64,000 nt of DNA from Cyclospora cayetanensis (Eukaryota; Apicomplexa; Conoidasida; Eucoccidiorida; Eimeriidae): positions 1 to 64,000 of the forward strand of contig NW_020312145.1 of the NCBI RefSeq assembly GCF_002999335.1, in the 5' to 3' direction. Positions 59,522-63,934 of the stretch are shown piece by piece. Position 1 is the first letter of the stretch; each line of letters opens with the position of its first letter. A model generated the notes under the pieces. It was not told where the DNA came from. It did no database searches and saw nothing but the letters and a program-made list of their open reading frames with translations. The position numbers and the translations under genes are program-made.

Positions 59522-61733
59522 ATGTGCTCGTGCATGCCAATGATACCCCGCGCAAAAGCCGCAACAGGATGCAGGAGGTGGACTACTCCCTGTACTCTGC
59601 ATGCCCTCCCGCTTCCCATAGGACAGTGCCTTAGTCCTGCAAGACTTCTGGGGGGCCCCTGGATTGCCTGCGCTTGCTTCGCCTCTTTGCCAGCCGCGCG
59701 AAAGCTCCCGTCGGCTTCTTCTGCAGGAAGCTTGAAACCTGCGGCTCCTTGGGGGTATGAGAAGGCTTCAGACTCTCCTCTACAAGCCGCGGGGGAGCTA
59801 GCTTCGCTACAGCTCGCCTCCTCAGAGGAAGGCATGGAGATCTCCCCAGCGGCTCAAGAAGTAGAGACCTTCCCATGGGGATGCCACCCGCAGCTGCAGC
59901 GGATGCAGGTGCTGCAGAAACAGAAGCATCAGGAGCAGCAGCAGCGCGAGGAGCTGCCTGCTGCTGTGCTGCAGCTGCTGCCGTCTACGCTTGCTCGAAG
60001 TGCCCTTGCTACAGCGTCGCAACAACAAACGAAAAGGGCCGGCCTCTTTAGGAGGGGCCCCAAGCTGAATGCAGCTGCAGTCACCATTGAGCTGCATGCG
60101 CTTGCCAGCAGCAGTAGCAAGAACGGCAGTCGTGTCTCAGCCGCAGCCAATACACCAGACATTCTTGTGGAGCGATACGATAGTGCTATACGACGAGAAA
60201 GCGACTGGGAAGAGGAGCGCGAGCTACTGCTAATACTGCTGCAGCGGCAGCAACAGATCCTTCCCTCCCTCAACCTCCAGCAGGTTGCTGTGTCTATGCA
60301 GGCTTTAGGGAACCTTGCCTCGCAGCTGCTTCTGCACGAAAGCACCACTCCTATCATCGCAGGAGTAAGGGAGGCGCTCGCGAGCAGGGCGCGGCAGCTG
60401 TTGCAGCATCAACTCGCAGCAGCAAAAACAGCAGGATACGAAGCATCAAAAGCCGTAGCAGATGCACCAACGGCAGCAGCGCTCCTTGTCAGTGCCGCGG
60501 CTATGGGTAGCCCGCAGCTGCCGCTAGCCAGAGATGCTGCTGTGCTCATTGCACGATTGGCAGCAACAGCAGCAGGAATAACTGAGACAACAGCTGAAAC
60601 AGCTACAGAAGAGGCGCCTAGTGGGCCTCTTCCCTCCTTGGAAGCCTTACATAAAGGATCTCACGCCTCTTCTCCCCAGAGATCCTTAGAGAGTACCCTT
60701 CTCCCGAGACACAACCAACAGCAGCTACGAAAGACGCTATTTGGCATACAGGGGTTGTGTGCCGTGTGCAAGGCCCTTCTGAGCCTAGAGGTGCTGCGCT
60801 ATAGCACCGCTCTTGCTAGTGGGGAGACATCCTCTGCCTCTTTTGAGTGCCGACCACCTTTGCTGCTGCAGGGGGCTTTTGAGCTGCTGCAGTGGGAGCT
60901 AGGGAACGGCCGAGGCAGCAGCCTTAGGGAGAGCGAGGCGCTGTTAGTCATCGATTTGGTGCTGCTGCTTTTGGCAGCGAAGCCTGCTGCAGCAGGAAAA
61001 GAGGTGGCAGCGCAATCAGGAGCGCCAGCGGCAGGAAGCGCAGGGGATACAGCAGAAGCTGCTTTAACACAAGTAGCAGCAAAATGTCTTATTTTGCACA
61101 GCAGTTGGCTTTTGCCTTTCATGGGCCGCCTTCACGACCTCCTCGAAAGCGATGCAGCATCCTGCAGTACTAGCAGCAGAAGCAGATTCGATATATCCGC
61201 CTATGTGTCTCTCTTCTCGTTCGCTGCGGCGTTAAAGGCGGCCTCCTGTCTTGCCCTCGAGGAGACGTCTCTGAGTACCTAAGCCTAAGCACCTGCAGCC
61301 CAACTCTAGCCCTTCCAGATAAAGCATATATATATACATATACCCATGAGCAGTGTCTCTCTCTCTAGCGAGTTTGTTGTAGAAGAGCCCCTTAAAGCCC
61401 TAAAAGGGTTTTGAACTTGTGGTTTAGCGTGTTTTTGCAGATGGCCAAGTGCTTGCGGAAGTGGATCGGTTGGTTCTGCATCTCTGCAGCAAGCGGCTGC
61501 TGCTGTTACAATCTCCTTTCCTGCTTCCTCAAGAGAAAGCCGAGCTCTCTGGGGCTTTCAAACGGTGAGCTGACGGGGAAAATGGCACGTGGTATGTCAA
61601 GGCTCGATGCTTGGAAGGAGAGTGTCGAAAGTAGGGGGATCAAAATTTTGTTTTCGGGTGGACTGATGCCGTGGATGTGCACAGGTTGGGCCTGCTGCTG
61701 CCTGACGTAGGCGAGTTGCCTCAGAGTGCTTAA
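59522..61733 (+). CDS. Helical-repeat (HPR/FAST-like) protein, 641 residues
   Basis: Three exons in consistent phase: 59522-61274 (CTGA|GTACCT), 61441-61564 (AAACG|GTGAGC) and 61685-61733 (stop TAA). The N-terminal 90 residues are Arg/Ala/Ser/Pro-rich with few acids before about residue 85, compatible with an organellar presequence. Residues about 230-640 are Leu/Ala-rich paired helices, for example LNLQQVAVSMQALGNLASQ and then ARRLLQ-type segments, and in exon 2 VLAEVDRLVLHLCSKRLLLL. The pattern resembles heptatricopeptide/FAST repeats, as in the two other helical-repeat genes of the window. No RAP domain is present at the C-terminus, which ends VGELPQSA. Inferred role: organellar RNA binding. 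It lies 640 bp upstream of the CenH3 gene on the same strand. Confidence 0.65.
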
Positions 61734-62371: not shown

Positions 62372-63320
62372 ATGGCGCGCATCAAAAACAAACCCACCCG
62401 CAAGGGTGTGGGTAACCCCAAGCGGCAGCAGGTCCAGCAACTGCGCAGGAGACCATCTGCTTCCTCCCCCATCAGCCCCGATAGTGACAGCGCCGCGTCT
62501 TCGCCGTCAACGCCTAGCGGCAAATCCCAGCCACCCTCGGGGGGCCCCTCCTCTGGGGGGCCCCTTGGAGGCGCCCCTGGCAGCAGGCAAGTCGGCATAG
62601 GGCACCGACCGCGCCCACACCCGGGGGTCAAAGCGCTTAAAGAGATCCTCAGATACAGGGTAAGGGCGTAACGACTAGGCCATGCTTCCCGCAGTTCCGA
62701 GCTGCATGCAGTAGTTGACATTTTGCATGCGGCGGCGGCGCCTCCGTAGCTTGCGCTGAGTCGGGCCCTTGATTGTGGCATCGCGAGATTCGAGATCACT
62801 GAGAGTGCGAAGTTAGGCTGTGGGTGTTGTGTGCTTTGCAGAACAGCACGGAGTTGCTGATTCCTAGGGCTCCTTTCTTCCGTCTGGTGCGCGAAGTCGC
62901 TCAAAAATTTACGCCTCCATACTTTGGAATGTACAGGCAAGGAAATTCTTGAAATCACGAGTTGAGACTTGACGCGGCTGCGCAAGCGCTCTCGCTTTCG
63001 GCTACACTCGTCACGCTGCATGCAATAGATGGGTCTAAGCGGCGTTCTCATGCCACCGGCGTTGCTGCCTTATTTTCAAAAGCCCCATGGACTCGAACTT
63101 TAGGCCCGCACTGTTTTGCATGAGGCTTCCATAATTCACGGCGCTGTACCTGCCACTATCCTCTTCCGTTTCGCCGTTTCTTTGCCTTATTATCTTCCCA
63201 GTCTGCCCTCCCTCCTCGAATCATCACAGTCTTACGACCCCCTCGAATGTATGAAACCGTGGCTTTTCTTGCATACACATACACACACACACGCACACAC
63301 ATGCACGCACACACATACAC

Positions 63321-63351
<31 letters not shown>

Positions 63352-63934
63352 TACACACACACAGCTAGAGGTGTGTGTTTAATAACTTTTGTTTGATGGA
63401 GAAAGGATCTGCACATCTAGTCTTTGCCTGCCGACCATCCCGGATAGCTAGATATAGAATGGTGTGTATTTGCATGAATGCATTCGTCCGTCACTGTACC
63501 GAAATCCTCATGCTGCCCACATATGCATATCTCTTAGAGGGCGTTGTCTTTAGGATGTGCCCTTTGAAAATCACGAGTATTGGGCTGTCTTGTCTCGTCT
63601 GTATCCATGCACGTGTACATGCATATGTATGCCTTTTCCCCTCCTTTTTCCCATTCTGCTGCTTTTCACCTTTTCCCCAGCTTGTTTCGTTTTGTTTTCT
63701 TGCCAACCTTTCATCTTGAATCCTGCAAGGAACGTGTCAAGACCAGCCCACCGCTTGTCTCCGCGTGCGCTTCTGCGCAGGTTCACCTCGGCGGCTCTTG
63801 AGGCCATACAGTGCGCAGCAGAAGCATTTGTCACGGGGCTGCTTGAGGACTCCAATTTGTGTGCGCTGCATGCGGGACGCGTCACCCTCATGCCAAAAGA
63901 CCTCCACCTTGCCCGGAGGATCAGACACACGTAA
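62372..63934 (+). CDS. CENH3: Centromeric histone H3 variant (CENP-A / CenH3)
   Basis: Three exons: 62372-62659 (AGG|GTAAGG), 62842-62936 (ACAG|GCAAGG, a GC donor) and 63781-63934; 178 residues. The start [12 protein letters not shown] parallels MARTKQT of H3. The alpha-N and alpha-1 helices read [19 protein letters not shown] and [12 protein letters not shown]. The region after loop 1 reads [20 protein letters not shown], and the C-terminus [26 protein letters not shown] is the CENP-A form, not the HAKRVTI of canonical H3. The loop-1 region is about four residues longer than in H3, and the tail between residues 25 and 80 is Ser/Pro/Gly-rich and unlike H3; both features mark a centromeric variant. 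It replaces H3 in centromeric nucleosomes and directs kinetochore assembly. Without the GC donor the middle exon runs to a stop within four codons. Confidence 0.95.
63266..63363. repeat. CA/CATA microsatellite in a CenH3 intron
   Basis: About 100 bp of cacaca and cacata units within the 844-bp second intron of the CenH3 gene. Confidence 0.95.

Follow-up and report, generated by a model that had tools for sequence, protein, structure and literature searches.

Introduction

CENP-A proteins are marked by a longer loop 1 and by loss of the α1 glutamine, according to an excerpt of PMC11633173. In the human protein, as described in a passage of PMC7475651, a two-residue insertion distinguishes CENP-A from H3, and loop 1 contacts CENP-N. 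For apicomplexans, an excerpt of PMC9252888 lists CENP-A, CENP-C (reported in Toxoplasma), Ndc80, and AKiT proteins, which are lineage-specific, and describes the rest of the CCAN as likely absent; an excerpt of PMC8842566 places TgCenH3 at centromeres. Our literature search on CenH3, loop 1, and apicomplexans returned only work on Euglenozoa.

Here, we analyzed a 64,000-nucleotide stretch of Cyclospora cayetanensis DNA (hereafter, the window), taken from a 68,333-base contig of an assembly of 43.2 Mb in 392 contigs. With high confidence, we read one of its genes as the Cyclospora CenH3 gene, with a GC donor in intron 2 that most likely derives from GT and with a coccidian loop 1 that is four residues longer than that of H3. 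By analogy with its Toxoplasma orthologue, the encoded protein would stand in for H3 in the nucleosomes of centromeres and mark the kinetochore site.

A three-exon gene

The gene comprises three exons (Table 1), which sum to 537 bases, or 178 residues and a stop codon, and the predicted protein (hereafter, the window protein) is identical to the NCBI entry "histone H3 [Cyclospora cayetanensis]" (P0001). The start, exons, and acceptors that had been assigned in the sequence-only reading were borne out by (i) the open frame, (ii) the MAR[IV]K start (MARIK or MARVK) with which coccidian relatives open, and (iii) spliced alignments. Intron 1 was chosen in all spliced alignment runs on this gene (6 + 2 + 6 runs), and P0243, the model of a relative, continues VSV directly after the same arginine as at the intron 1 junction.

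Table 1. Features of the CenH3 gene in window coordinates; a slash marks the exon-intron boundary here and in the text
Feature	Position	Strand	Description
Exon 1	62372..62659	+	Residues 1-96, phase 0; start codon, Ser/Pro/Gly-rich tail, N-terminal part of the histone domain; open frame
Intron 1, GT-AG (AGG/GTAAGG ... TTTGCAG)	62660..62841	+	182 bases
Exon 2	62842..62936	+	Residues 97-127 plus two bases of the Arg128 codon; α1 helix and the larger part of loop 1
Loop 1 segment TPPYFGMY(R)	62911..62936	+	Four residues longer than in H3
Six donor-dependent bases	62931..62936	+	Kept or lost by GC 62937 or GT 62931, respectively; decide the presence of Tyr-Arg
Intron 2, most likely GC-AG	62937..63780	+	844 bases, phase 2; spliced alignment and profiles
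Exon 3	63781..63934	+	α2 and α3 helices, stop codon TAA

A long CA-type repeat is visible by eye within intron 2, at 63270-63364. The upstream neighbor is an alanine/glutamine-rich open frame of 586 residues (59522-61282, plus strand), for which no Pfam match was found at an E value of 0.01; a Pfam scan of eight of the nine window open frames of at least 350 residues besides the CenH3 gene gave no match, the ninth, of 2,040 residues, having been left out.

Identity of the window protein

The claimed histone fold was confirmed by a Pfam Histone match of 100.8 bits (cut-off, 26.4), and the best 60 PDB matches listed were H3 chains. The AlphaFold model of the window protein was poor (mean pLDDT, 63) and too weak for a loop comparison, and a fold search listed nucleosome H3 chains with low TM-scores.

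The window protein differs from canonical H3 in both tail and core. Its tail before the PG anchor spans 83 residues and is 49% Ser, Pro, and Gly, in agreement with the Ser/Pro/Gly tail noted from the sequence, whereas one canonical H3 of C. cayetanensis has a 41-residue tail with 24% of these residues. In α1, the glutamine of H3 is replaced by phenylalanine (PFFRLV, against PFQRLV in the two H3s of the genome). These two canonical H3s have an ARTKQTARKS tail and a PFQRLVREIAQDFKTDLRF core, and, among the best candidates scored, a protein search of the genome recovered only them and the exons of the CenH3 gene; we found this gene to occur once in the assembly.

In a 36-row tree with the loop columns included (34 chosen proteins and the genome's two H3s), the window protein grouped with P0002 and the CenH3s of Toxoplasma, Neospora, and Besnoitia with a support of 98/95. 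The tree program issued a long-branch warning for this tree, which named Besnoitia and two more. The coccidian CenH3 clade persisted at 95/88 in a 27-row tree (25 proteins and the two H3s) from which the loop columns had been removed. Uniting the window protein and P0002 with the genome's two H3s in one clade, a placement that the sequence-only reading had set as the outcome opposed to its CenH3 assignment, was rejected with the loop columns out (p-AU 0.003). Tree position, loop length, the lost α1 glutamine, and the tail thus support the assignment of the window gene, at the sequence level, to the CenH3 (CENP-A) type.

The coccidian, fungal, and animal CenH3s did not form one clade in our trees. 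A clade of all CenH3s was not rejected when two gregarines and Synchytrium were counted as CenH3 (p-AU 0.242) and was rejected when they stayed on the H3 side (p-AU 0.0097); the apicomplexan and fungal rows alone gave a p-AU of 0.042 as one clade. An excerpt of a survey of kinetochore proteins (PMC5579357) has the Toxoplasma candidates outside its CenpA cluster. We therefore use the class name in a functional sense.

Loop 1 length in coccidian CenH3s

Loop 1 length was read as the distance between two anchors, the PF of α1 and the ED close to where α2 ends. All five intact coccidian proteins, namely the window protein and P0002 to P0005, show a distance of 43 (P0002 being counted as coccidian by its tree position), and both canonical H3s of C. 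cayetanensis one of 39. Not counted as intact were P0011, which has both anchors but a distance of 34, and P0091 and P0241, which end before the second anchor. Among 120 matches listed, both anchors were found in 93 proteins, 43 of which showed a distance of 39 and 20 a distance of 43; several of these 20 are fungal CenH3s. Cardiosporidium and P0013 have a distance of 42, and two gregarines have 41. Since the distance is 43 in five of five intact coccidian proteins, the extra residues are, as judged from these alignments, a feature common to the coccidian CenH3s examined, and a view of them as a peculiarity of the Cyclospora protein is not supported. The earlier loop counts themselves agree with ours: four residues more than H3 here (43 against 39), and two more in human CENP-A, according to a passage of PMC7475651.

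The sequence of the loop is conserved as well. Each of the eight coccidian rows of one alignment (P0002 included) has TPPY, then three residues, then Tyr/Phe-Arg, and the arginine of this pair is present in all 26 rows of that alignment. A pattern applied to the 120 proteins listed gave 109 matches, 104 of them with this arginine; of the other five, two resemble misread registers. The loop of the window protein is of the coccidian TPPYxxxYR form with its arginine retained, a residue whose H3 counterpart presumably sits at the DNA minor groove.

In the model of the Cystoisospora suis protein (P0011), some ten residues are missing directly behind the loop, where YR is followed by RCASEAF, probably because the acceptor at the intron 2 position was wrongly placed. 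A nine-protein profile of apicomplexan and related sequences gave 7,871 matches, the 120 listed being long histone-domain proteins, mostly from animals, which were not used.

The donor of intron 2

The sequence-only reading had assigned a GC donor to intron 2 on the grounds that the frame needs it. The site CAG/GCAAGG is present at 62937, and the intron shows the strong [AC]AG/GCAAG context and the AG acceptor of GC-AG introns (CAG/GCAAGG and CTGCGCAG). When GT, GC, and AT donors between 62860 and 63099 were enumerated with AG acceptors, 63 pairs kept the frame (18 GT, 24 GC, and 21 AT). One of these joins a GT donor at 62931 (AAT/GTACAG) to the acceptor at 63780 and yields an open frame of 176 residues that loses exactly Tyr-Arg. 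The frame argument for the GC donor therefore fails; it is homology that favors the GC site.

Intron 2 could thus be of the ordinary GT-AG class and begin at 62931, with a protein of 176 residues that lacks Tyr-Arg and has a loop 1 of the length found in human CENP-A. Three profiles built without P0001 were used to score the 63 isoforms. The GC isoform was the best in each profile, with 176.4, 215.2, and 153.8 bits against 166.9, 200.9, and 150.0 bits for the GT isoform, which ranked second in two profiles and third in the other; the smallest margin, 3.8 bits, came from the profile with non-coccidian rows. Spliced alignments agreed. When GT and GC carried the same cost, CAG/GCAAGG was chosen by four of four queries; when each of the 16 dinucleotides did, it was chosen by six of eight, namely P0002, Toxoplasma, Neospora, Besnoitia, Cardiosporidium, and Cercospora, and not by the P0013 and fish CENP-A queries, which have shorter loops. 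Of these queries, P0002 is a 181-residue protein on a 1,024-base contig, which suggests a spliced relative. When only GT was permitted, alignment scores of 499 and 345 dropped to 469 and 316, respectively. Furthermore, the GT donor would remove both the arginine present in all 26 aligned rows and the Tyr/Phe-Arg pair kept in the eight coccidian rows, the NCBI protein includes Tyr-Arg, and, by a hand count against the consensus CAG/GTAAGT, the GT donor matches at 4/9 positions and the GC donor at 7/9. We therefore regard an intron that begins at 62931 as very improbable.

The two donors lie only six bases apart, share one acceptor, and each keep the frame, so that both might be used, giving two CenH3 forms that would differ by the Tyr-Arg of loop 1; titles in the reference list of PMC3488318 indicate that GC-AG introns have been studied in relation to alternative splicing. 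However, the donor at 62931 is a weak one, and the protein made from it would be without a residue kept in 26 of 26 rows, which makes dual use, by our estimate, most improbable. The GC site at 62937 is most likely the better reading of the donor, as judged from sequence homology and not from the frame.

The public models of the Eimeria maxima (P0091) and Eimeria mitis (P0241) proteins end at GMYR and look truncated, with the last exon missing. Because this end fits a read-in of GTAA, GTGA, or GTAG after AG, the position of intron 2 is probably common to Eimeria, and the GC donor is probably a later change. Judged from these models, it would have arisen from GT by one T-to-C change in the Cyclospora lineage.

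Putative GC donors in the Cyclospora genome

We surveyed 32 C. cayetanensis loci (29 + 3) by spliced alignment of six human query proteins, each of the 16 dinucleotides carrying the same cost. Flanks were well aligned in 91 of the 197 introns predicted (76 GT, 4 GC, and 11 other), and 78 of these further reached a margin of 4 or more (69 GT, 4 GC, 2 CC, 1 AC, 1 AA, and 1 CG). By eye, the five donors that are neither GT nor GC fit no splice consensus; distributed over 14 dinucleotides, they show the chance level of about 0.4 each. The four GC donors (AAG/GCAGGT, CAG/GCAGGT, CAG/GCAAGG, and CAG/GCACGC) belong to introns at L058, L059, L077, and L078, the last two on the minus strand.

GC thus accounts for 4 of 73 GT/GC donors (95% interval, 1.5-13.4%, from a small sample of hand-chosen loci), which renders doubtful, for C. 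cayetanensis, the earlier remark that such a donor belongs to a rare class. From these alignments, the share of GC-AG introns in Cyclospora may exceed the 1.2-2.1% quoted for non-canonical introns in animals, fungi, and plants, although an estimate from so small and hand-chosen a sample is best taken as a lead. A literature search on GC-AG introns in Eimeria, Toxoplasma, and apicomplexans yielded nothing on coccidia in the passages retrieved, with PMC3488318 represented by its reference list.

The survey also bears on whether the C of the intron 2 donor is an assembly error, in which case the true site would be CAG/GTAAGG and the protein would be unchanged. A single T-to-C error would yield the observed site, and the Eimeria models that stop at GMYR, in keeping with read-through of AG/GTAA, AG/GTGA, or AG/GTAG, are compatible with such an error. 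Yet the four further [AC]AG/GCA donors in a small sample of the genome indicate that GC donors look real here, and we consider an error very unlikely; a genuine GC donor is retained as our reading.

Discussion

The gene is real, it was correctly recognized as CenH3, and its loop length is normal for its group; overall, it is an ordinary member of that group. For Cyclospora, where the NCBI name is only "histone H3", this provides a clear CenH3 whose gene structure has been checked, and with it a tool for locating centromeres. GC donors in CenH3 and in a few other genes also serve as a warning that gene prediction restricted to GT donors may overlook or truncate coccidian genes.

Because the coccidian CenH3s examined share the longer loop 1, it can be tested in Toxoplasma. 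An Ndc80 match is present in the C. cayetanensis genome, and CENP-N and CENP-C_C gave no match in a six-frame search; both are weak negatives, given that such a search misses split genes, that CENP-C is reported in Toxoplasma (an excerpt of PMC9252888), and that the CENP-N search gave no match in the control genomes either. If CENP-N is missing, the coccidian loop contacts something else or merely shapes the nucleosome. A tentative and rather unlikely proposal is that a kinetochore protein or chaperone specific to the lineage docks on the conserved TPPYxxxYR loop, and that this contact replaces the one with CENP-N.

The closest described proteins, namely the CenH3s of Toxoplasma gondii (P0004), Neospora (P0005), and Besnoitia (P0003), resemble the Cyclospora protein in their histone fold, in their Ser/Pro-rich tail, and in a TPPYxxx(Y/F)R loop of the same length (anchor distance, 43). 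They differ from it in their tails, which span 114-118 residues before the PG anchor against 83 in Cyclospora, and in a C-terminal FPC. The "histone H3 variant" models of E. maxima (P0091) and E. mitis (P0241) stop where Cyclospora intron 2 begins, and they differ in a putative GT donor, in glutamine-rich tails, and in the lack of exon 3 from the public models. Human CENP-A, as described in a passage of PMC7475651, shares with the Cyclospora protein its CenH3 class and a loop 1 longer than that of H3, whereas its insertion consists of two residues, Arg-Gly, that bind CENP-N, in place of the four extra residues in Cyclospora.
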